Of a stretch of DNA of 64,000 bases, positions 22,046-63,226 are shown in pieces (within the stretch, counting starts at the first letter, position 1; each line of letters starts with the position of its first letter). The position numbers and the translations under genes were made by a program. The notes beneath the pieces are model-generated. The model made no database searches, was not told the origin of the DNA, and was given only the letters and a program-made list of their open reading frames with translations. Source of the stretch: Prosopocoilus inquinatus (Eukaryota > Arthropoda > Insecta > Coleoptera > Lucanidae); NCBI GenBank assembly GCA_036172665.1, contig CM069869.1:4960001-5024000 (forward strand). The letters are read 5' to 3'.

Positions 22046-22816
22046 TTAAGTTGGCACTGGTAACGGACACAAATTCGTTATAGTTCTTTTGTAAACGCCA
22101 CTTGGAGTTTTTACACTTACAACTCGAACTTTGCCGTCAGTTCCAGGAAACACTTCAACAATTCTTCCTAAAAGCCATCGTGCGGGAGGTAAATTTTCAT
22201 TTTTTAAAATAACCATGGTTCCTACTGTACAACAATTTTTGCCTTGCTGCCATTTCTTTCTTTGTTGTAGATTACAAAGATAATCTCTACTCCATCTTTT
22301 CCAAAAACTCTGACACATTTGTTGCATTAATTGATATCGGGATAATTTATTTATTGGTAAATGCAATAAACTTGGATCTGGAAGCATTATCATTACTTTA
22401 CCAATTAAAAAATGTGACGGAGTCAGAGGTGTTAAATCAGTTGGATCTGATGACATGGCATCAAGGGGTCTTGAATTCAAGATTGATTCCACTTGAGTTA
22501 ACACAGTTGAAAATTCTTCGTACGTCAAAATCGTTTCTCCAATTACTTTGGTGAGATGGAGTTTTACAATTTTTATATTTGACTCCCACAAACCCCCAAA
22601 ATGTGGAGATTTTGGTGGAATAAAATTCCATTTTACATTATATTGTGAGCAAAAATTAACAATAGAATCATTCGATTTTTTTAGAAATTGATTTAATTCT
22701 TTTAGTTGATTTGCAGCACCAACAAAATTTGTACCATTATCAGACCATAGTTCATTTGGGAAACCTCGTCTTGCTGAAAATCTACGTAAACATGAAATAA
22801 AACATTCAGTTGTCAA
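22046..22816 (-). pseudogene. BEL integrase, catalytic core second half and C-terminus
   Basis: The translation carries the second catalytic Asp in LWSDNGTNF and the catalytic Glu in HFGGLWESNIK. The C-terminal region contains VGTMVILKNENLPPARWLLGRI, a signature of BEL/Pao integrases. It is in the same frame as the preceding ORF, separated by the in-frame TAA at 22874-22876. The Met at 22816 is therefore an internal residue, not a real start. It would join element cDNA to host DNA. Confidence 0.9.
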
Positions 22817-22873
22817 ATCAGATACTAATTCAACGTGAATTGCTTTTACAGCAAAACATATAAATAAACAAAT

Positions 22874-24004
22874 TTAAGCTTTTGAAGTTTTATAACCACG
22901 ACCTTTACGATCCTTAATAATATAAGGACCAGCATAATCAATACCGGTAACTGAAAAAGGTTGTAAAGGTGTTACTCTACTTTTAGGAAGATTACATATT
23001 ATATTATTTAAAAATACAGGCTTAGCCTTAAGACATATTAAGCAATTTCTGGTTATGTCTTTTGCTAAATTCATGCCATTAATAGGCCAATATTTTTGTC
23101 TAATAGTATTAAGTAATAACTGCGGACCTGCGTGCAATAATCTCTTATGCTCATACAAGAATAGTAATTTTGTAAATGGGTGTTTGGTATCCCGTAATAT
23201 AGGATGTTTTGAATTAAATTCTAGCATTGAATGTTTAAGCCTCCCTTTCAATCTAATAATTCCATTTTCATCTAAAAAAGGTGTAAGGCTTCTTAATTTA
23301 ACTTTTAATTTTTCAAAATTTTCACTTGTAATATTTTTGTATTCATTTTTAAAAGAATCATTTTGAGATAATTTAATTAAACATTGTAAAGCATAGTTTA
23401 ACTCATCCACTGATAATGTATAAGATTTCTTAAAATTGTTTCTCGTAGCTAAACAGTTTGTTTTAAATTTTATGCAATAAGCTACAATTCTTTGCATTTT
23501 AAGAAAATTAGAAAATTTATCAAATATATTGAATTTTATTTCATCATTAATAACTTGCAAAGTTGTTATATTTAAATTTCTTTTATATTCTGGAATTTCT
23601 CTAAGAGAAGGAATAAATTTATAATCATGTGTTTGTGAATCAAAAGAAGATAACCAGTTAGGACCGTTCCACCATAACTTATTACCAAGAAGTTCGTTAG
23701 GATAAATTCCTCTAGAACTAATATCAGCAGGATTTTCTCTTGTGTTGACATAATTCCATATACAGTCTTTTGTGGATTCTTGTATTTGAAATACTCTATT
23801 AGCAACAAAAGTTTGTAATTTACAACATTCTGTGTTAATCCAATGCAGAGTTACAAGAGAATCTGACCATAAAAGACAATTACCTTTGAAATGAATAGCA
23901 TTTCTAACAATTTTAAGTAATTTTGCAAGCATAAATGCAGCTAGTAACTCTAAACGAGGAGTACTACATGGTTTAAGTGGAACAATCTTTGTTTTGGCAC
24001 ACAA
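22874..24004 (-). pseudogene. BEL RNase H remainder and integrase N-terminal half
   Basis: The start holds RNase H-like sequence (STPRLELLAA, LWSDSLVTLHWI, NPADISSRG). It is followed by the integrase zinc-binding region (EHKRLLHAG ... CLICLKAK) and the first catalytic Asp in GIDYAGPY. It ends at the in-frame TAA 22874-22876, just into the catalytic core. It is one frame away from the upstream piece (24025-24375), so the reading frame changes near 24005-24060. Confidence 0.88.
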
Positions 24005-24024
24005 AAGAGATATTTGAATATTAG

Positions 24025-24375
24025 TTAATTATTAATATCAGAATCAATACTCCGAAGGTAAATACATGCACAATAAGCTTGACTTGAAGCATCACAAAAA
24101 CCATGCATTTGAATTTCTTTAGCATTATTTATAATAACATGTAGAGATATTTTTAAATCATTTAGACTGTTTAAATTATTTCGAAAATGCAACCATTTTT
24201 TTATTAATTCTGTGGGAATATTAGTATCCCTATCTATTTTTAATAACCATAATTGTTTTAAAATAATTTTTGCTATTATAGTGCAAGGACTAATTAGACC
24301 TAAAGGATCATAAATTTTTGAAATTTCTGATAAAATGTGACGTTTTGAATAAACATTAGGTTTATTATAATTCAA
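24025..24375 (-). pseudogene. BEL segment between RT and RNase H
   Basis: The translation contains SEISKIYDPLGLISP, a block found after the RT palm in BEL/Pao polyproteins, and GFCDASSQAYCACIY, the first RNase H Asp motif. Its first codons lie at the Gypsy insertion point. Removing the 6,586 bp between the ATAT duplications puts it in the same frame as the RT ORF at 30965-32149, so the two were one gene before the insertion. Confidence 0.85.
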
Positions 24376-24378
24376 TAT
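24375..24378. repeat. Gypsy target-site duplication, left copy
   Basis: ATAT directly before the TG of the 5' LTR, matching 30961-30964 after the CA of the 3' LTR. The site lies in the BEL pol gene. Confidence 0.85.
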
Positions 24379-24516
24379 TGTGGCGCACCAACCGGCTTAG
24401 CGCAAGGCGCCAAGAAGTCGGCCGCTTCGATGTATCATCGGCCGTCACGCGTTCGGGGCCCATATCGAGCAAACTAGAATCTTCCAGCATCGAGACTTCC
24501 AGACGCCAACAGTAGA

Positions 24517-24551
24517 TATAAAATCGCCCGGAGTTGACTCACGAGTCAGTC
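24517..24551 (+). promoter_or_regulatory. LTR core promoter: TATA box and initiator
   Basis: TATAAAAT at 24517-24524 is followed by TCAGTC at 24546-24551, which fits the arthropod initiator. The A at 24548 would be +1, putting the TATA box at about -31. The same arrangement exists in the 3' LTR. Confidence 0.75.
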
Positions 24552-24592
24552 GAATTCGAGCAGCGATAGTCGAAGTTAGATTTTAGTGTGAA

Positions 24593-24598
24593 AATAAA
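24593..24598 (+). terminator. LTR polyadenylation signal
   Basis: AATAAA lies about 45 bases after the predicted start site. In the 3' LTR copy it would direct 3'-end processing of the genomic RNA. Confidence 0.55.
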
Positions 24599-24703
24599 TT
24601 GTTAGAAATAAATTAGTTTTTAAGCTTCATTAAATTACGGTTAAGTTTTTATCGAGTGTTTTATTCGTTTAAATAAATAAACTCAAACCCTAGAAACGTA
24701 ACA

Positions 24704-24801
24704 GTGGTGTCAGGTGTGGGGTTTGTGCAAATAAATAAACAATTTAAAGTAAATTAAATTTAATCAGATTATTAAATAAGTACAGAAAAAAAAAAAAAAC
24801 A
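24704..24801 (+). promoter_or_regulatory. Gypsy leader with putative primer-binding site
   Basis: Directly after the LTR the sequence reads GTGGTGTCAGGTGTGGGG. The TGG start and position fit a tRNA primer-binding site, but I did not assign the tRNA. An A-run precedes the gag ATG at 24802. Confidence 0.55.
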
Positions 24802-26394
24802 ATGGCTACGAGAAAAGTGTTGTTGAAAGACTTAAAAGTGGCCGAATTAAAAACCGAATTGGAAGAACGAGAGTTAGAAACCTGTGGTTTGAAAGGCGCA
24901 CTTCAACAGCGTCTCCGATCCGATTTGTTAACAGCTGGTGAAGATCCAGAGACGTTCCTTTTCGAAATTTCGTGTGGTCCCGTCGATTTTAATAAAATCT
25001 TGAAGGATGAATTTCGAGAACAATCCAGAAATTTAGAGGAGAAGCTTCTAGAACAATCTGGAAATTTCAAGGACGAACTTCGAGAACAATCCAGAAATTT
25101 GGACGAGAAGTTTCAAGAACAGTCTGGAAATTTAGAGAAGCTTCAAGAACAATCCAGAAATTTAGAGGAGAAGCTTCTAGAACAATCTGGAAATTTCAAG
25201 GACGAACTTCGAGAACAATCCAGAAATTTGGACGAGAAGCTTCAAGAACAATCCAGAAATTTAGAGGAGAAGCTTCTAGAACAATCTGGAAATTTCGACA
25301 AATTACAAAATAAATTGTTGGAACAATCTAGAGACTTAGACGAGAAATTTCTAGAGCAATCCAGAAATTTCGACGAGAAACTTCTAGAACAGTCCGGAAA
25401 TTTGAAGGGTGAATTTCTAGAACAGACGAAAGGACTCGAAGATAAACTAGTGGTAAAAATATCGGAAGAAACAAGAAACCTTCAAGAAAATGTGGAAGAA
25501 ATAATATTCCAGCAGGATAATAAAATCAAAAATCTGGAACAAATCATGGCGGGGTTGCGAGTGTTCGGGGATCAGCCACCAGTAGAAGTACTAGAAAATA
25601 ATGAAACCCGAATTGTGGAAGGACCAACAGAAAATTCTAAACTGAAGATAAAACCACCAACGTTCGATGGAAAGTCTTCTTGGCCCAACTACTTCAAACA
25701 GTTCGAAGCAGCAGCAAAGGCAAACAGATGGACGGCCAGCGAAAAAGCCACTTCGTTAATTGTGGCCTTGAGAGGGGACGCTATCGATGTGCTGCAGACG
25801 ATGCCGCCAGAGGAACAAGAAGACTTCGACAAGCTGGTGAATAGGATGGAAATGCGTTACGGACAGGCCCATCTGACCGAGGTATACCATGCGCAGTTGA
25901 GGAATCGCTGTCAGAAATCCGGAGAAACTCTTCAGGAATTCGAAGCAGACGTTGCGCGTCTGGCCCAGTTGGCATATCCCACAGCTCCTGTTGAATTCCT
26001 CAAATGTTTGACGGTGCAGACCTTCATAGATGGAATCCGTGACCCAGACAACCAGCAAGCATTGAGAATGACCCATCCGAAGACGTCCAAGAACGCATTA
26101 GCTTATGCCTTGGAATTTGAAGCAGCGAGACGAGTCTCAAGAGGGCATGTCAAGGTGCGAGCGGCTATGGACTTCCAAGAGGAAGAAGAGGAAGAATCCG
26201 CTAACGCCAAGGTGGGATCTACTATAAAGGAGCGAGCCAGGGAGTATGCCACCGCCGAGGATGTTCGCCGCATTGTGGAACAGGTCTTCAAACAGAAGAG
26301 GCCGCTGGTTTGTTGGAATTGCCAGGAGGAAGGACATGTTCGCAGGCGATGTCCAAAGCCCAGACAGGATCCAAGGAAGCCACAGTTAAACTAA
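24802..26394 (+). CDS. Gypsy Gag with SAP-like motif, hendecad coiled coil and CCHC knuckle
   Basis: This 530-residue structural protein would assemble the particle and bind element RNA. Residues about 7-42 (LKDLKVAELKTELEERELE ... LQQRL) match the SAP helix-helix pattern known in chromatin-binding proteins. Residues about 73-216 are some 12 repeats of an 11-residue unit such as EQSRNLEEKLL, predicting a long right-handed or hendecad coiled coil. Residues about 280-440 (PPTFDGKSSWPNYFKQFE ... FIDGIRDP) are a typical retrotransposon Gag core. C504-x2-C-x4-H-x4-C517 is the zinc knuckle. The first ATG after the leader is used, preceded by AAAAC. The ORF ends in TAA immediately after the frameshift heptamer. 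It is longer than many Gypsy Gags because of the repeat array. Confidence 0.93.
   Translation: MATRKVLLKDLKVAELKTELEERELETCGLKGALQQRLRSDLLTAGEDPETFLFEISCGPVDFNKILKDEFREQSRNLEEKLLEQSGNFKDELREQSRNLDEKFQEQSGNLEKLQEQSRNLEEKLLEQSGNFKDELREQSRNLDEKLQEQSRNLEEKLLEQSGNFDKLQNKLLEQSRDLDEKFLEQSRNFDEKLLEQSGNLKGEFLEQTKGLEDKLVVKISEETRNLQENVEEIIFQQDNKIKNLEQIMAGLRVFGDQPPVEVLENNETRIVEGPTENSKLKIKPPTFDGKSSWPNYFKQFEAAAKANRWTASEKATSLIVALRGDAIDVLQTMPPEEQEDFDKLVNRMEMRYGQAHLTEVYHAQLRNRCQKSGETLQEFEADVARLAQLAYPTAPVEFLKCLTVQTFIDGIRDPDNQQALRMTHPKTSKNALAYALEFEAARRVSRGHVKVRAAMDFQEEEEEESANAKVGSTIKERAREYATAEDVRRIVEQVFKQKRPLVCWNCQEEGHVRRRCPKPRQDPRKPQLN
25018..25450 (+). repeat. 33-bp coding minisatellite in gag
   Basis: About 12 to 13 units, mostly 33 bp with a few shorter or longer, encode the EQSRNLxEKLx hendecad. 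Blocks of several units are themselves duplicated (25018-25140 resembles 25141-25260), so the array is likely to vary in length between copies. Confidence 0.9.
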
Positions 26395-29009
26395 GCCGGG
26401 TCGGTGCAGAGGGGCAAACGTCGACCCGTATTCAAAGGCCCCCAAAGACGAAAGCCAACCAAGTAATTTTCCTACGGCAGTTAACCAGCAGTGTCTTCGT
26501 GGATGTCACCATTGATGACATTCCTCACACCATGTTGTTGGATACGGGTGCGACGAAGACCATCCTAAGACCCGACGTCATTAAGTCATCTGGACGCACC
26601 GAGCCGACCAAGTGGAGACTGAAAACTGCAACTGGAACATCAGCAACTGTCCACGGTGAAGTAGAGGTTATCATCACCATTGGTTCAACTCCAATTAAAC
26701 ACCGTGCACTGGTGGCAGATATAGAGGACGAGGCAATTTTGGGCATGGACGTCATGTGTGCCCACGGGTTCCAATTGGACTTAAAGCGTGGCGTGATGGC
26801 GGTCAATAATGAGGAGTTGGTTCTACATCAACGAGGGGACGTGGCCGCTCGAGTAGTCCTCGCTGAAGACGTTGTATTACCCAGCAGGACTGAGGTTATC
26901 GTCGACGCAAAACTGGACGGTGTTTTTCAAGATGGGCAAGTCATTATGGTTGAACCTAATACTGATGATCAAAGGATTGGAAGAGGAGTCCTCGTTGGGA
27001 AAATGTTGTTGACGGCGAAGAAGGAAGTACCTGTCCGCCTGATGAACGTCAATTGTTTCTCTGTCAATATCAAGAAAGGAACAATCTTGGGAAGCTGCAC
27101 CATGGTGTCCTCCATCTCCCGGCAACTTGAAACAAACGTGCCAGAAGCGAAAGTCCCAAAGAAATTATGGGAAATGGTTATGTCAACAGCCCAGGAATTG
27201 ACTCCAGACCAGAAGACAAAAGCAAAGAATCTGATCGGCCGCTATCAAGATGTATTTGAGGTAGAAAATGGATCCAAGGGAAGAACTGATGTCGTGAAAC
27301 ACAAAATAGAGACTGGAGAAGAAAGACCTATCCGTCAAGCTCCAAGGCGATTACCGTTGGCGAAGCGTGAGGAAGCGGAACGCATTATTCGCGAGATGGA
27401 AAAGGATAATGTAATAGAACCATCAAGCAGCCCGTGGGCGTCACCAGTAGTGCTTGTGAAGAAGAAGGATGGGTCCACCAGGTTCTGTGTAGACTACCGG
27501 TTACTCAATAATGTCACCAAGAAGGACAGCTATCCCTTGCCCCGGATTGATGATACCCTGGACACCCTGGCCGGCTCAAAGATCTTCTCAACTTTGGACT
27601 TAAAGAGTGGATATTGGCAAGTGGAGCTGGCGCCCGAAGATCGAGAAAAGACGGCGTTTTCCATTGGTATGGGTCTGTGGCAGTTCACAGTGATGCCATT
27701 CGGGTTATGTAATGCCCCAGCGACATTCGAGAGGTTAATGGAGACGGTTCTGAAAGGTCTGTCCTGGACAACGTGCATGGTGTACCTTGACGACATAATT
27801 GTCGTGGGAAAGACGTTCGACGACCACCTAAGGAACCTGGAAGGAGTGTTCCAGCGGCTTCGCGGAGCTGGACTAAAGCTTAGCCTCAAGAAGTGTCACC
27901 TGTTCCAGAAGGAAGTGAATTACCTGGGGCACATAGTTAATGGAAACGGAATCGCCGTGGACCCTGTGAAGATTCAGGTGGTGAAAGACTGGCCAACTCC
28001 CAGAAATAAACACCAAATAAGGAGTTTCCTTGGCCTGTGCACTTACTATCGGCGCTACGTTCCTGGATTTGCAGACATTGCTAAGCCGTTGACAAAACTC
28101 ACTGAAGAAGGTCGTCCATTTGAATGGGACCAACAGTGTCAAATTGGCTTTGAACAACTAAAGCAGTACTTGGTTAGTGCTCCTATTCTGAGTTATCCTC
28201 TCCCGGAAGGCAAGTTCGTCGTGGACACAGATGCTAGCAACGTTGGAATTGGTGGCGTACTCTCCCAGATACAAGAGGGGCAAGAGAAGGTGATCGGCTA
28301 CTTCAGTAAAGTCCTATCAAAGCCGGAACGAAACTATTGCGTCACAAGAAGGGAATTGCTAGCCGTCGTAAAAACGATAGAACACTTCTACAAGTACTTG
28401 TATGGTAGACGCTTCCTGCTGAGGACCGACCACGCCGCTCTAAAATGGCTTCTCCGTTTCAAGAACCCAGAAGGGCAAGTTGCACGATGGATCGAACGAC
28501 TTCAGGAGTACGATTTTGAAATTCAGCATCGGGCAGGAACTAGCCATCGAAATGCCGATGCTCTGTCGAGAAGACCCTGTGCCGAAGACTGTAAGCACTG
28601 TAGTCGTTTGGACGAGAAAGTAGCCACGACTGCGAGGACAGCCATTGTTGATGACAAATGGCAAGGCGAAGAACTGCGAAGAGACCAGGAGAACGACCCG
28701 GATTTGAAATTAGTGCTAGAATGGAAAAGCAGGGACGCGAGGCCTACCTGGGAAGAGGTAGCACCATGTGCACCGTCCGTAAAATCATACTGGGCGCAGT
28801 GGGACTCCATAGTGTTGGATCGTGGTCTTCTGAGACGAAGCATAGAGAATCAGGAAGGCATGGAACAGAAGACACAGTTACTGATCCCCAAGAATAGGGT
28901 GCCAGAAGTTCTGAGGGAACTTCACGATGGAACTTCGGGAGGGCATCTGGGAGTTAAGAAGACTATGGAGAAGGTGCGCGAAAGATTTTACTGGGTGAAC
29001 TGCAAGTAA
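26310..29009 (+). CDS. Gypsy Pol, first part: protease, RT, RNase H, integrase N-terminus
   Basis: The open frame begins at 26310, but translation is expected to enter by -1 frameshift near 26388, so the first Met is not a functional start. Aspartic protease: LLDTGATKTIL with Asp at residue 78. Reverse transcriptase: FCVDYR at about 391, YLDD active site at 492-495. RNase H: catalytic D639, E682, D707 and D750 in the DTDAS, RRELLA, RTDHAAL and NADALSR motifs. The integrase zinc-binding region begins with His 872 and His 879. The frame is cut by TAA at 29007-29009 (codon 900), between those histidines and the cysteines. The next ORF is in the same frame. The enzymes process Gag-Pol and copy RNA into cDNA. 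Confidence 0.95.
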   Translation: MLELPGGRTCSQAMSKAQTGSKEATVKLSRVGAEGQTSTRIQRPPKTKANQVIFLRQLTSSVFVDVTIDDIPHTMLLDTGATKTILRPDVIKSSGRTEPTKWRLKTATGTSATVHGEVEVIITIGSTPIKHRALVADIEDEAILGMDVMCAHGFQLDLKRGVMAVNNEELVLHQRGDVAARVVLAEDVVLPSRTEVIVDAKLDGVFQDGQVIMVEPNTDDQRIGRGVLVGKMLLTAKKEVPVRLMNVNCFSVNIKKGTILGSCTMVSSISRQLETNVPEAKVPKKLWEMVMSTAQELTPDQKTKAKNLIGRYQDVFEVENGSKGRTDVVKHKIETGEERPIRQAPRRLPLAKREEAERIIREMEKDNVIEPSSSPWASPVVLVKKKDGSTRFCVDYRLLNNVTKKDSYPLPRIDDTLDTLAGSKIFSTLDLKSGYWQVELAPEDREKTAFSIGMGLWQFTVMPFGLCNAPATFERLMETVLKGLSWTTCMVYLDDIIVVGKTFDDHLRNLEGVFQRLRGAGLKLSLKKCHLFQKEVNYLGHIVNGNGIAVDPVKIQVVKDWPTPRNKHQIRSFLGLCTYYRRYVPGFADIAKPLTKLTEEGRPFEWDQQCQIGFEQLKQYLVSAPILSYPLPEGKFVVDTDASNVGIGGVLSQIQEGQEKVIGYFSKVLSKPERNYCVTRRELLAVVKTIEHFYKYLYGRRFLLRTDHAALKWLLRFKNPEGQVARWIERLQEYDFEIQHRAGTSHRNADALSRRPCAEDCKHCSRLDEKVATTARTAIVDDKWQGEELRRDQENDPDLKLVLEWKSRDARPTWEEVAPCAPSVKSYWAQWDSIVLDRGLLRRSIENQEGMEQKTQLLIPKNRVPEVLRELHDGTSGGHLGVKKTMEKVRERFYWVNCK
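26385..26428 (+). promoter_or_regulatory. Programmed -1 frameshift signal between gag and pol
   Basis: The heptamer G-TTA-AAC at 26385-26391 lies in the gag frame and is directly followed by the gag stop TAA. After a 5-nt spacer, CGGGTCG (26397-26403) can pair perfectly with CGACCCG (26422-26428), leaving an 18-nt loop. Pol is in the -1 frame relative to gag and is open through this point. GTTAAAC is a known slippery heptamer in some RNA viruses. Heptamer, spacing and stem together make this convincing, though untested. Confidence 0.8.
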
Positions 29010-29012
29010 GAC

Positions 29013-30734
29013 GTGAAGGATTGGTGCAGAAAGTGTACAGTCTGCGCAGCCAGTAACGGTCCCCACAGGCGGGGTAAGGCTCCCATGAGACAGTACAACG
29101 TTGGAAGTCCTTTTGAGAGAGTTGCCATCGATGTAGCCGGCCCGTTTCCAGAAACGAATGGTGGAAACAAGTACATCGTCGTGGTAATGGACTACTTTAG
29201 TAAGTGGGTTGAAGCTTACGCCCTACCTAACCAAGAGGCGATCACTATTGCGGAAGTCCTTGTCAGGGAATGGATCAGTCGGTATGGTGCACCTATGGAA
29301 CTGCATTCAGACCAAGGAAGGAACTTTGAATCGGCCTTGTTCAAGAACGTGTGTACTCTGCTCGGCGTACGAAAAACTAGAACAACTGCACTCCACCCAC
29401 AGTCGGACGGAATGGTGGAAAGGTTCAATAGAACCATCAACCGACATTTGTCCAAGGTCGTTTCCAATCATCAGAGGGACTGGGACACGTACATCCCCCT
29501 GTTTCTAATGGCATACCGCTCATCTGTTCATGAGACAACAGGGGAGACTCCCGCGAAAGTGGTATTCGGGCGAGAGCCGAGACTGCCCTGCGACCTGAAG
29601 TTTGGTGTGAAGCCTGGCGAAGTCTCTGCCGACGAAGATTACGTGAGCAAATTACGCAGGAAAATGGATGATATCCACAACCAAGTGCGTCACAATATAC
29701 AGACGGCCAGCGATCGGATGAAGGAGCACTATGACATCAACGCTCAACACGGGGGATACCAACCTGGAGCACTGGTCTGGCTTTATAACCCCCAAAGACG
29801 TCGAGGCCTCTCCCCAAAATTACAGACCTCTTGGGAAGGTCCTTACAAAGTGATGAAACGGATCAACGACGTCGTTTACCGCATCAAGAAGGTCCCCCAT
29901 GGCAAACCCAAAGTAATCCACTTCAACCGGATAGCCCCTTACCATGGAGAAGCAGATGAAGGGACAGTACAAAGGGCGCAAGTTTCCGAAGTGAACTTCG
30001 AAACCTTCATGTCTCATCACGCCGAAGGAAGCAAGGCACGGTTTGGAGTGACCACGGAGAAGCAACAAGATCTCTTTAAAGTGCCACCGGAGTACAGTCT
30101 GGCCCACTGCGTAGCAGAAGACCTGAAAATGTCCAAAGGAATCGCTCAGGTGTTTAGGAAGAAATTTGGCCAAATCGAGGAGCTACGAAGACAGCATCCC
30201 GTGGTAGGCAAGAGCTTGCAGATCATTGATTCGACGGCAGATCGGAGGCGCCACGTGCATTATTTAGTCACTAAGAAGACATCAAGCGGTAAACCTGACT
30301 ATCAAAGTATGTGGAGAGCCCTATATAGCCTAAGGAGACAGCTAATAGAGACCCATCAGATGAAGCTAGCCATCCCCAAATTGGGCTGCGGATTGGACGG
30401 ACTAGACTGGAGAGTAATTCGAAGCATGCTGGAAGTCATCTTCCACAGAACGGGAATTGAAGTCCTAGTCTGCAGCCACCACCCACAGGCAACAGACAGC
30501 AACAGCAAAACCGTAGACTGTTACTTCTTCCAGACGGGAAGTTGCAAGAATGGGCCAGCATGTAGATTCCGACACCCTCCTTCAAGACTATCACCAGGAA
30601 CATTTCGAGACGAAACGTTTTTAAGAAGGGGGCAGTGTGGCGCACCAACCGGCTTAGCGCAAGGCGCCAAGAAGTCGGCCGCTTCGATGTATCATCGGCC
30701 GTCACGCGTTCGGGGCCCATATCGAGCAAACTAG
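29013..30734 (+). CDS. Gypsy Pol, second part: integrase, macrodomain, CCCH zinc finger
   Basis: It continues in the same frame after one in-frame stop, so its first Met is internal. CRKCTVC (residues 5-11) completes the zinc-binding region. The catalytic triad is D40, D100 and E136 with 35 residues between the last two (DD35E). A GPY/F module (WEGPYKVMKRINDVVYRI) lies at about 275-292. Residues about 362-489 look like a macrodomain of the TARG1/OARD1 type: SLAHCVAEDLKMSKGIAQVF, YLVTKKTSSGKPDY and LAIPKLGCGLDGLDW in that order. A CCCH finger follows: C503-x7-C511-x5-C517-x3-H521. The last 33 codons or so lie in the 3' LTR. ADP-ribose binding or removal and RNA binding are inferred from the families. 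The macrodomain has no obvious separate start, so it is expected as part of Gag-Pol. Confidence 0.93.
   Translation: MKDWCRKCTVCAASNGPHRRGKAPMRQYNVGSPFERVAIDVAGPFPETNGGNKYIVVVMDYFSKWVEAYALPNQEAITIAEVLVREWISRYGAPMELHSDQGRNFESALFKNVCTLLGVRKTRTTALHPQSDGMVERFNRTINRHLSKVVSNHQRDWDTYIPLFLMAYRSSVHETTGETPAKVVFGREPRLPCDLKFGVKPGEVSADEDYVSKLRRKMDDIHNQVRHNIQTASDRMKEHYDINAQHGGYQPGALVWLYNPQRRRGLSPKLQTSWEGPYKVMKRINDVVYRIKKVPHGKPKVIHFNRIAPYHGEADEGTVQRAQVSEVNFETFMSHHAEGSKARFGVTTEKQQDLFKVPPEYSLAHCVAEDLKMSKGIAQVFRKKFGQIEELRRQHPVVGKSLQIIDSTADRRRHVHYLVTKKTSSGKPDYQSMWRALYSLRRQLIETHQMKLAIPKLGCGLDGLDWRVIRSMLEVIFHRTGIEVLVCSHHPQATDSNSKTVDCYFFQTGSCKNGPACRFRHPPSRLSPGTFRDETFLRRGQCGAPTGLAQGAKKSAASMYHRPSRVRGPYRAN
30623..30635 (+). 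promoter_or_regulatory. Gypsy polypurine tract
   Basis: AAGAAGGGGG followed by CAG directly before the TG of the 3' LTR. It is the expected primer site for plus-strand cDNA synthesis and is also translated as part of the C-terminal ORF. Confidence 0.75.
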
Positions 30735-30960
30735 AATCTTCCAGCATCGAGACTTCCAGACGCCAACAGTAGATATAAAATCGCCCGGAGTTGACTCACG
30801 AGTCAGTCGAATTCGAGCAGCGATAGTCGAAGTTAGATTTTAGTGTGAAAATAAATTGTTAGAAATAAATTAGTTTTTAAGCTTCATTAAGTTACGGTTA
30901 AGTTTTTATCGAGTGTTTTATTCGTTTAAATAAATAAACTCAAACCCTAGAAACGTAACA
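30636..30960 (+). repeat. Gypsy 3' LTR (325 bp)
   Basis: Same length as the 5' LTR, with one visible substitution. It contains the stop codon of the Pol ORF (30732-30734). Confidence 0.95.
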
Positions 30961-30964
30961 ATAT

Positions 30965-32149
30965 GTTAAAAGATAAATCATCAGATTCACATGACCATTG
31001 AATACCTAATGTTTTAATATTTTTTTCACCAAAAGTTAGCACACTAATAGGATTATCATCAGATTTAACCGAATTTAAAATAAGTTCGTTGTTTGATCTC
31101 CATTTTCTCAGAGGAAAACAAGCTGAGTTTAAAATAAATATTATTTGCTTACATAAGCAAATGGCTTCATCTAAATCGTTAAATCCTGTTATTAAGTCAT
31201 CAACATAAAATGAATTCATTATTATATGAGATGCAATTGGAAACTCATTTTTAAAATCTAATGCTAATTGTTTAAGACATCTGATAGCTAAATAAGGTGC
31301 ACTTGTTGTACCATAAGTGACAGTATTTAAAGTATATGCTTCAATATTTGTATTGGAATTAAATCGCCAAAGAATTTGTTGTAATTTTCTATCATTAGGA
31401 TGTATTAGTATTTGCCTATACATTTTTTCTATATCAGATGACACCACATAAGTATATTGACGAAAATTTAAAAGTATTGAAAAAATGTCATTTTGTATTG
31501 GTAATCCAGTGTATTGTAAATCATTAACTGAATAACCACTAGTTGTTAAAGCTGAACCATTAAAAACAACTCTCAACTTTGTGGTTAAACTTTCTTCTCT
31601 TATGACAGCATGATGAGGAAGAAAATATGATATCTCATTGGTGTCAGTAACTTTAGATAATTCCATGTGTTTTAATGATAAATAAGTATTCATAAAATCA
31701 TGATACTCAATTTTTAATTGGCAATTCTTTTCCAATTTTTTTTCCAATTGTAGTAATCTTTTTATTGCTAGATTTTTTGAGTCACCTAACTTATTTTCAT
31801 TATATTTAAGCGGTAATTTTACAATGAAACGACCATCATCATTTCTTGTATAATTATTTATAAATATTTTTTCACATTCTTCATCATCATTAGACATAAA
31901 TTTAACAGAAGGACAATCCTCAATTGTCCAAAATTTATTTATTACGTCATGTAAAACTTGATTTTCATTTATGCTGAATAAACAATTGGAATTCGTATTG
32001 AATGAATTAATCTGACCAGCTGTAATATAACCAAAACTAGTGTTTTGTAATATGGGCATATTTTTTCCCAAGAAAATTTTACCTGATCTGATTAAATTCC
32101 AAAAATGACTACCACCAATCAATAAATCAATTTCCTTTGATGTATTCAA
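30965..32149 (-). pseudogene. BEL protease end and reverse transcriptase
   Basis: The open frame runs on to 30947 inside the Gypsy LTR, but element sequence ends at 30965. The start (IDLLIGGSHFWNLI) belongs to the region after the BEL protease. RT motifs are LRVVFNGSA, VVSSDIEKMYRQI with the first catalytic Asp, TYGTTSAPYLA and FYVDD, with YVDD near residues 315-318. The upstream ORF (32162-32785) is in the same frame, separated by an in-frame TAA at 32162-32164. The apparent Met start is therefore internal. Confidence 0.92.
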
Positions 32150-32161
32150 ATTAGGATCAGC

Positions 32162-32785
32162 TTATTTAACATTAGCTGGAATATTCCAACCAGAAATATC
32201 AATGGTTCTAGATGGTAAATGATTTGTAATTTGTTCTAAAATTAAACAAGGAAGATTAAAATTGAAATTATTGTACATTGATTTCACACGAACATTACAT
32301 TTTTTATTTATTTTGGAAGAACTTTGATTAATTCCAGTAATGTTCATGTTTATATTATTTTGTGGTAACTTTAACTTGCTTATTAATCTTTTTGAAATAA
32401 AATTTGATTGTGAAGCACTGTCTAATATTGCATTACAAATATTAGCATTTCCATTAGCATCATAAATCAACACCTGTGCTGTTGATAAAAGTACATAAGA
32501 ATTCAAATGACTATTTGTCAAAGCCATATCATTTTTATTGAAATTCTCCTCTGAAGGATGTAATAATGTATTATGATTTTGGTTGCAAATTTTACATGAC
32601 TTTGATTTACAATCTTTAGTTTTATGACCTACACATAAACACTTTTCACATAATTTATTTTCTTTTACTTTTTCTAATTTCTGATCGAACGACAATTTGG
32701 AAAAATCAAAACATTTATAAATTTTATGATTAGGTTTCTTACAATAATTGCAAGAAATTTTTCCTTTTGGAAGATTTTGAGACAA
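32162..32785 (-). pseudogene. BEL nucleocapsid knuckles and aspartic protease
   Basis: Two CCHC knuckles stand at C12-C25 and C46-C59 (both C-x2-C-x4-H-x4-C), and a third Cys/His cluster at 64-76. The protease active site is AILDSASQSNFIS with Asp at residue 122, typical of the BEL/Pao (A17-type) peptidase. It overlaps the gag ORF at 32739-32785 but sits one base off in frame. The switch occurs around an A-rich run near 32755. Confidence 0.9.
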
Positions 32786-33746
32786 ATAACTTTTTGAAAT
32801 TATTATTGTCCATTTCTAATGACTCTAAAAGGTCAGCATGTTGTCTCAAAAAATCTTGCATATCCTTTAAGGATGGCGATTCATCTTTAAAGTTTTTAAA
32901 TTTTTCCCATTCTATAGATGAATTTTTGTCAATTTTAGAAGAAATTAGAAATATTAATAAAGAATCCCATTTGTCGGTAGGTTGTCCCAAAGAATATAAT
33001 GCACGCAAATGCTTTAAGATATTATCATTTAAATGACGTAATGCATGAGCATTCTCAAATTTAATAATGGGTAAATGAAATAGTGCTTTTATATGATTAT
33101 GTACCAATATTCTTGGATTATTATAACGATTGCACAATAAATCCCAAGCTATTTTATAATGAGAAGCAGTGAATTCTAATGATTTCATTATTTCAAGTGG
33201 TTCACCTTCTAAGGTTGCCTTTAAATAATGAAATTTTTGAATTTTATTGATAGAATCATTTACATGAATAAGACTTTCAAAGGTATCTTTAAAATATAAC
33301 CATTCATCATATTTACCATTAAATTTTGGCAAATTAATTATGGGCAATCTAATGTTATTTTTAATATTCTGATTTGACACAGAAGACTTTGACATTTCTG
33401 AAATATTTTCATGATGATTTGAAACTGTTTCATTACTTTTCAAAATTCTTTTTGCCATTGCAAAATATTTATTGTATTTATTTACAAATTCATCTCTCTC
33501 ATTATACTGAATTTCAAGTACGTCATCATCACAACTTTGTTCAATATTTAACTGAACAGTTTCAAACTCATCTAAAATTTGTGGCAAATTTTGTAATCTT
33601 ATATCCATTTCTATTGCTTTTTGCTCATCAATATCATTAGAATCATTAAATTCATTAAATATGGGAGTTACAAAAGTTACAAAATTAGTTAATTTACGTT
33701 TAACAGCTCCTCTGTTCCTCACCAAAGTATTGTATTCTTGCGCCAT
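32739..33746 (-). CDS. BEL Gag N-terminal region
   Basis: A 335-residue Gag. It begins MAQEYNTLVRNRGAVKRKL, a start typical of BEL/Pao Gags, with a helical N-terminal region. Residues about 130-235 (LPIINLPKFNGKYDEWLYFKDTFESLIH ... YNNPRIL) match the family's conserved Gag domain (DUF1759 type). The ATG at 33746 is the first after a leader of about 355 bp from the LTR, so I accept it. It would form the particle shell. The ORF ends shortly after the frame change near 32755, losing the connection to the knuckles. Confidence 0.88.
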   Translation of the reverse strand: MAQEYNTLVRNRGAVKRKLTNFVTFVTPIFNEFNDSNDIDEQKAIEMDIRLQNLPQILDEFETVQLNIEQSCDDDVLEIQYNERDEFVNKYNKYFAMAKRILKSNETVSNHHENISEMSKSSVSNQNIKNNIRLPIINLPKFNGKYDEWLYFKDTFESLIHVNDSINKIQKFHYLKATLEGEPLEIMKSLEFTASHYKIAWDLLCNRYNNPRILVHNHIKALFHLPIIKFENAHALRHLNDNILKHLRALYSLGQPTDKWDSLLIFLISSKIDKNSSIEWEKFKNFKDESPSLKDMQDFLRQHADLLESLEMDNNNFKKLFVSKSSKRKNFLQLL

Positions 33747-62614: not shown

Positions 62615-63226
62615 TTGAACATAAATTTATTAAACTTTAATGAATTGCATGTTATTCAATTGTATTCACTTTTTGATGCTTTTGATCTTAAACAAGTTAT
62701 CAAGGAACCTACTCGTGTAACTCGATTTTCCGAATCTATTATTGATGTCATTTTTTTGAATAGCAAACTGGAATGTGCAACTTCAGGTTCTTTTAGCGTA
62801 CAGAACGTATCTGATCACAATCTTGTATTCTGTGATATCAATTTAGTTATACCCTCTACACTTCCTAAGTGTTTGACATATCGCAGTTTCAAATACTTCA
62901 ACTATGATGCATTTCTGTCTGACTTGCAAAATATTCCCTGGTATATTATGCTACGATTAATTCAAATTGATGAAAAGTTAAAATTTTTTAATGATAACTT
63001 AGTATTATTATTTGATGTTCATGCTCCTATATGTACTTCTACCTTCCGGAAGTTTAATCCTCCGTGGTTAACAGATACTCTTCGCGAAATTATGAAATTG
63101 CGTGACGAAGCTTTTAAACGATTTAAAAACACTGGTATTGCAGCGCACAAGGAATATTACAGAACACTTAGAAACTACGCAACTTTTGCAGTTAGGGAAG
63201 AGCAAAAAGCATACATAAAAAGTTAG
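62615..63226 (+). pseudogene. Endonuclease C-terminal half and linker of element C
   Basis: The frame is open upstream of the Met to about 62480. ICLGDLNINLL just before and at the Met is the conserved GDxN block of the endonuclease. IDVIFLNS and VSDHNLVFCDI (the SDH catalytic His motif) follow at residues about 44-77. The NPPWLTDTLREIMKLRDEAFKRF linker block is typical of Jockey/CR1-type elements. The frame stops at TAG 63224-63226, but similar sequence (FSASNSKDQWRSLNKL) continues in the same frame, so the stop is a lesion. The endonuclease would nick target DNA to prime reverse transcription. Confidence 0.8.

Follow-up and report, generated by a model that had tools for sequence, protein, structure and literature searches.

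TARG1-type macrodomains with conserved catalytic residues in the Pol proteins of Ty3/Gypsy retrotransposons of Prosopocoilus inquinatus and other insects

Why would a retrotransposon carry a macrodomain inside its Pol protein? The question is raised by a 64,000-nucleotide stretch of the Prosopocoilus inquinatus genome (assembly GCA_036172665.1, contig CM069869.1, positions 4,960,001 to 5,024,000; below, ‘the window’), which holds a Ty3/Gypsy long terminal repeat (LTR) retrotransposon whose Pol frame continues past the integrase. The first-pass annotation of this DNA had read a TARG1/OARD1-like macrodomain and a CCCH zinc finger in that continuation. Sequence comparison confirms that the Pol segment is a TARG1-type macrodomain with the predicted catalytic residues, and related macrodomains occur at three Pol positions, in seven groups of elements, within this one genome. 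We consider it probable that a Gypsy lineage, whose named hosts are so far mainly beetles, took the cellular TARG1/OARD1 macrodomain into its Pol, where it works as an ADP-ribosyl hydrolase and relieves PARP-linked repression or repair interference.

Macrodomain and CCCH finger downstream of the integrase

Compared with sequences of known structure (PDB), the window macrodomain matches TARG1 with an E-value of 1.7e-28 across 137 aa; it is 38% identical to human TARG1, and it has the same fold, its predicted model superposing on TARG1. Equivalents of TARG1 Lys84 and Asp125 are both present; these are the lysine and the GCGLD aspartate that the first-pass annotation had named as the catalytic pair. 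The annotation had also named loss of the ADP-ribose pocket as a reason to abandon the assignment; the tested pocket residues are kept. The profile search that it proposed bore it out for the finger (Pfam zf-CCCH, 26.5 bits against a cut-off of 20.5, E 6.1e-6), whereas Pfam Macro stayed below its cut-off in the window copy.

The best PDB sequence match of the finger, which has the predicted C-x7-C-x5-C-x3-H spacing, is CPSF30, with ZF4 as the single best finger. As described in PMC9512404, ZF4-ZF5 of CPSF30 bind a protein, hFip1, and ZF2-ZF3 bind RNA, namely the AAUAAA signal. Since the finger resembles those of CPSF30, which bind partners of either kind, it may by analogy bind RNA or a protein.

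The whole element spans positions 24379-30960 of the window and is assigned to the Ty3/Gypsy type by the Pfam order of protease, reverse transcriptase (RT), RNase H and integrase. Its features, including open reading frames (ORFs), are as follows.

24375..24378, no strand: target-site duplication ATAT, left copy (identical 4 bases at 30961-30964)
24379..24703, plus strand: 5′ LTR, 325 bp, TG...CA (1 mismatch to the 3′ LTR)
24705..24722, plus strand: likely primer-binding site, TGGTGTCAGG, from its position adjoining the LTR
24802..26394, plus strand: Gag ORF, 530 aa (Pfam SAP 2.5e-6, zf-CCHC 1.2e-5)
26310..29009, plus strand: Pol, first open part, with protease, RT, RNase H and the start of the integrase zinc domain (Pfam, ORF list)
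29013..30734, plus strand: Pol, second open part, with integrase core, C-terminal module, macrodomain and CCCH finger (ORF list, Pfam)
29109..29390, plus strand: integrase core, rve (Pfam 3.4e-12)
29838..29939, plus strand: integrase C-terminal module, Integrase_p58_C (Pfam 3.2e-11)
30045..30479, plus strand: TARG1-type macrodomain
30273..30275, plus strand: codon of the Lys84 equivalent (alignment to 4j5r)
30396..30398, plus strand: codon of the Asp125 equivalent, in GCGLD (alignment to 4j5r)
30519..30575, plus strand: CCCH finger (Pfam zf-CCCH, best PDB match CPSF30, ligand codons)
30622..30635, plus strand: polypurine tract ahead of the 3′ LTR, coding as well (read from the sequence)
30636..30960, plus strand: 3′ LTR, 325 bp
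30961..30964, no strand: target-site duplication ATAT, right copy

In the window copy the Pol frame is broken by an in-frame TAA (29007-29009) within the integrase zinc domain. The second part, a 573-aa ORF, stays open to 30734, and its stop codon lies within the 3′ LTR. Because the frame extends into the LTR there is no space for env, and no env ORF, an errantivirus feature, was found between Pol and the 3′ LTR of this element.

Distribution and origin of the macrodomain

In each genome search 150 candidates were scored, so that copy counts are lower bounds. Searching the 650-Mb genome with the macrodomain-CCCH segment gave 1451 first-look candidates; the best-scoring 150 of them, to which the window belongs, all match at no less than 97%, and the segment is free of stops in 148. 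When copies were instead chosen by the integrase core (150 scored, 40 fetched), macrodomain DNA lay downstream in 40 of 40, and 34 were free of gaps and stops over 29013-30584. The six damaged copies comprise four with frame breaks (L110, L112, L125 and L144, the first of which has lost part of the macrodomain), one truncated in the finger (L113) and one lacking a finger ligand (L119). Of the 87 fetched copies, 85 have Lys84 and Asp125, and in the other two the aligned piece does not reach these positions; Glu replaces Gly123 in L124. Thus, the macrodomain-CCCH segment is a fixed part of this Gypsy element.

The selection check suggested in the annotation was answered in part. Among the 40 integrase-chosen copies, the ratio of nonsynonymous to synonymous polymorphism (pN/pS) is 0.43 for the macrodomain (codon bootstrap 0.20-0.90), 0.15 (0.02-0.53) for the linker plus CCCH, 0.18 (0.00-0.82) for the finger alone and 0.51 (0.22-1.10) for the C-terminal part of integrase. 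The macrodomain value looks purifying but is loosely estimated; in the 34 open copies it is 0.48 (0.24-1.10), and the linker plus CCCH 0.17 (0.02-0.57). For the macrodomain, this integrase-ranked set gives the fair figure, though it is in turn biased for integrase (core pN 0); ranking by the macrodomain-CCCH segment biases the ratios low (0.25 and 0.09 for macrodomain and linker plus CCCH in 47 copies). Constraint on the macrodomain within the genome is likely, as judged from these ratios, though loosely estimated, because the intervals are broad.

Protein searches extended the fusion to other insects, with 132 (120 listed), 40 and 15 matches. Named sources include the longhorn beetles Aromia moschata, Molorchus minor and Exocentrus adspersus, the leaf beetles Gonioctena quinquepunctata and Diabrotica virgifera, the fireflies Pyrocoelia pectoralis and Aquatica leii, Brassicogethes aeneus, and the leafhopper Macrosteles quadrilineatus, in whose two short entries no finger was seen. 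After removal of 11 cellular-, viral- or human-looking rows from 159 aligned ones, 148 element rows remained. At 85% identity these fall into 30 lineages, of which 14 come from named beetles and one from the leafhopper; one includes a record filed under a fungus, and the window is among the 14 others. Thirty is an upper count at this cut, since partial or decayed rows (six from Aromia, two short Aquatica pieces) are included. Counting lineages with a letter at the site, Lys84 is found in 27 of 28, Gly123 in 28 of 29 and Asp125 in 28 of 29 (by rows 143/144, 145/147 and 145/146), against a mean frequency of 0.66 for the commonest residue per macrodomain column; the one exceptional lineage is P0091 from Diabrotica. 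The full set of four finger ligands is seen in 119 of 148 rows, and 23 of the 30 lineages have at least one such row. Across 12 elements, integrase distances correlate with macrodomain-CCCH distances (Mantel r 0.674, 0 of 5000 permutations as high), which fits common descent of the two parts. The number of copies and the residues kept across lineages rule out a chance match or the one-off transduction that had been named as an alternative.

A 5-kb contig in a record named Erysiphe pulchra, a powdery mildew fungus, also encodes a Pol with macrodomain and CCCH finger (P0135); this could be arthropod contamination.

The annotation had described a single Gypsy lineage with a macrodomain. That lineage is real, but the fusion is more widespread. 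Genome searches that started from an aphid TARG1-like domain and went on to the F3, F5 and F7 domains revealed six further groups, which we number F2-F7 by macrodomain, F1 being the window type; Pol position was read in one copy each of F3, F4, F6 and F7 and in two of F5. In F2 (L167-L170, L167 lying in the G000:C1:19993957 region) the macrodomain follows integrase as in F1, in a 1575-aa open frame in three of four copies; the CCCH finger is absent and the protein ends in an acidic tail of repeated EDEIPLSEL-like motifs. In F3-F6 the domain precedes RT. F3 (L179) has a partly recognised protease (1.8e-5, just under the Pfam cut-off) and an RT (1.6e-35) that lies in a different frame from the macrodomain. 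In F4 (L187, L190) the RT downstream matches at 4.2e-38 and the protease end was read by eye. F5 has RT downstream in L188/L191, and its protease was seen only in a related fragment (L189), weakly (E 0.1). F6 (L193) joins a protease above the Pfam cut-off, the macrodomain and, by eye, the RT start in one frame, and at least 17 rows have a 1764-aa frame. In F7 (L194, G000:C6:50273658-50275377; at least six copies at 96% or more) the macrodomain takes a third position, with RNase H on one side and the integrase zinc domain on the other; these two exceed the Pfam cut-off and share its frame.

The PDB matches of these domains to TARG1 are 2.3e-43 (F2), 1.3e-39 (F3), 1.7e-38 (F4), 2.5e-30 (F5), 3e-38 (F6) and 3.4e-29 (F7), and Lys84, Gly123 and Asp125 are kept in all eight rows compared (window, F2, F3, F4, two F5, F6, F7). 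F2-F7 are 40-50% identical to human TARG1. RT identity to F1 members is 60-62% for F2 and 49-51% for F3, F4 and F5. Between F3 and F4, RT is 82% identical and the macrodomains only 55%; given the RT figure, the two may count as one lineage, whose macrodomain seems to change, or to be exchanged, faster than its RT. The RT tree, with 8 rows and a very distant BEL outgroup, is weak, the before-RT group having 61/41. In F3, L179 and L184 lie at G000:C7:18318016-18327438 on the minus strand. An OTU-like domain considered in F3 between RNase H and integrase (starting GDGSCLFW) was dropped, the Pfam match having E 0.092 over 16 residues only.

Where did the domain come from? In a 46-row tree, 23 F1-type macrodomains group together (98/95) and adjoin cellular TARG1-like genes, and phage and other viral TARG1-like domains are set apart (100/99). 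Twelve of 50 viral-contig loci with TARG1-like macrodomains (28-44% identity) served as a distant tree group. Pfam found no retroelement domains in six of the eight cellular rows (P0119, P0139, P0140, P0141, P0142, P0151), the scan having left out P0120 and human TARG1. When F2-F7 were added, F1 stayed together (99/98) and elements plus cellular genes stayed apart from the viral domains (100/97), with weak order among groups. (P0120, P0135, P0147 and P0157 were dropped as near-copies from the F1-F3 tree onward, and P0142, a long branch, from the F1-F5 tree onward.) Animal TARG1 is therefore the most likely source, judging by these sequences. Among the 15 of 150 scored places read in the aphid-domain search (L167-L181) no host TARG1 gene was found, all lying in retroelement Pol; introns may hide exons, so this absence tells nothing.

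Three Pol positions imply either at least three captures, or fewer captures plus relocation. We give almost as much credence as doubt to one ancestral Gypsy capture that then moved between Pol positions by recombination among elements. A single element clade is not rejected by the approximately unbiased (AU) test (p = 0.381 for F1-F3, 0.141 for F1-F5 and 0.0948 for F1-F7; F1 plus F2 alone 0.234, before-RT group alone 0.256), and in the F1-F7 tree F7, with its domain between RNase H and integrase, groups with the before-RT groups F5 and F6 (94/94), as relocation predicts. Set against this are the three different positions themselves, the higher identity of F2, F3 and F4 to human TARG1 (48-50%, against 38% for F1), and the F1-F7 tree, which unites these three with all six cellular genes (85/85, not starred). 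Since the trees do not reject a single clade, independent capture is not treated as proven. We hold only tentatively the account in which insect hosts defend themselves by ADP-ribosylating retroelement proteins, cDNA or chromatin, and Gypsy elements for that reason captured TARG1 at least three separate times, at the three positions, as a counter-defence enzyme.

Possible functions and known relatives

If the domain works as a hydrolase, it would be made within Gag-Pol and carried in the particle, and would remove ADP-ribose that host PARPs attach to the proteins of the element, to cDNA or RNA ends, or to insertion-site chromatin. Such removal would relieve PARP-linked repression or repair interference, and the CCCH finger may place the macrodomain on its RNA or protein partner. 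An eraser appears to be the most economical reading, because the rows of all seven groups retain the catalytic pair and because the domain positions share only Pol and the particle. We infer that somewhere on the way from particle to integration these elements are held back by host ADP-ribosylation, and the recurrence of macrodomains in Gypsy suggests that ADP-ribose erasure helps them. The substrates listed for TARG1 in PMC7050489 are ADP-ribosylated proteins, O-acyl esters and phosphoesters at nucleic-acid ends. In Drosophila without PARP-1, as reported in PMC7712786, the change was significant for eight mobile elements, of which five rose and three fell, and three of the eight belong to the gypsy superfamily; ten more rose below the authors' threshold, nine of them of that superfamily.

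Several points weigh against a working eraser. Hydrolase activity is a prediction from sequence and fold, and the phosphate loop of the window macrodomain reads MSKGIA for the MGAGIA of TARG1. Identity to the window is 51-58% for the macrodomain-CCCH segment and 64-76% for integrase, so that the former changes faster, and selection within the genome is not firm, the open-copy interval of the macrodomain crossing one. A row from Diabrotica virgifera virgifera (P0091) carries Arg for Lys84, Ala for Gly123 and Glu for Asp125, with the CCCH ligands intact; since domain and finger are kept there, a non-catalytic role is possible in that lineage. Finally, the PARP-1 effect may be indirect according to its authors, and three of the eight elements went down (PMC7712786).

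It is unlikely that the macrodomain is instead a reader, which would bind ADP-ribosylated chromatin or proteins and tether the integration complex in the manner of a chromodomain at the integrase C-terminus. Macrodomains do bind ADP-ribose, those of F1 and F2 sit directly after the integrase C-terminal module, and the catalytically substituted Diabrotica lineage still has the domain. In F3-F7, however, it lies before RT or between RNase H and integrase, away from the tethering end; the catalytic pair would be superfluous in a reader but persists in the rows read for all seven groups; and insertion sites show a short sequence preference, with target-site duplications of ATAT (four times), GTAT, TTAT and GTAG in the window element and the six resolved of ten examined copies. 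A transduced host fragment without function is highly improbable: the sub-threshold Macro match, the six broken copies of 40 and a pN/pS interval up to 1.10 would suit it, but catalytic residues are kept across 30 lineages and seven groups, and 148 of 150 scored places, though the best-scoring ones, are stop-free in the segment.

Among the closest known systems is TARG1/OARD1/C6orf130 itself, of the ALC1-like macrodomain hydrolases, with the same fold, length, Lys84-Asp125 pair and Gly123; unlike TARG1, the Gypsy domain is fused in Pol, is followed by a CCCH finger in F1 and has the altered phosphate loop. Chromoviruses are Gypsy elements with a chromodomain after the integrase C-terminal module, the place of the extra domain here; a Pfam scan of the 573-aa ORF of the window element, taken up to E 1, gave no Chromo family. 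The macrodomain of the bacterial antitoxin DarG shows 21-24% identity. Structure-library matches to the macrodomain model include predicted proteins of Kadipiro virus (VP8), thrips-associated virga-like viruses, a flavi-like virus and Cressdnaviricota. Macrodomains are part of viral proteins, as here, in alphavirus nsP3 and the coronavirus X domain, and those of positive-strand RNA viruses show hydrolase activity (PMC7050489). Fish epsilon-like endogenous retroviruses carry extra macro-domain ORFs (Basta et al. 2009, cited in PMC4977317) and are likewise retroelements with an acquired macrodomain gene, a likeness drawn from the citing review's description, macrodomain class aside; there it is an additional ORF of a vertebrate retrovirus, here it is inside the Pol of Ty3/Gypsy. 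Uptake of macrodomains by retroelements is thus known already; what appears new is the unusual recurrence inside Gypsy Pol, and no description of a macrodomain in Gypsy or LTR retrotransposons was found in open-licence PMC literature.

If the domain is active as a hydrolase, it would single out ADP-ribosylation as a restriction that insect LTR retrotransposons face. With macrodomains recurring at three Pol positions of one genome, a functional need can be tested on small purified domains, and the elements offer a natural set of TARG1 variants, one lineage with altered catalytic residues among them.

The window copy and its surroundings

The Gag N-terminus has a SAP domain (24823-24924) followed by a repeated EQSRNLEEK-like stretch, coiled-coil-like by eye, and Gag also has a CCHC knuckle. 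SAP (PF02037) is likewise annotated on many Aromia rows among the protein-search matches. The near-identity of the LTRs argues for a recent insertion of the window element. Copies L107-L146 have near-same integrase and macrodomain, yet the 3′ LTR start, read in frame, varies, which suggests LTR subfamilies or recombination.

The element interrupts a BEL/Pao element on the minus strand (22046-24375 and 30947-33746), to which it lies antisense; Peptidase_A17, integrase and DUF5641 are on one side, RT and DUF1759 on the other. A weak Exo_endo_phos_2 match under the cut-off (E 0.001) at 62615-63226 is perhaps a relic of a long interspersed nuclear element.
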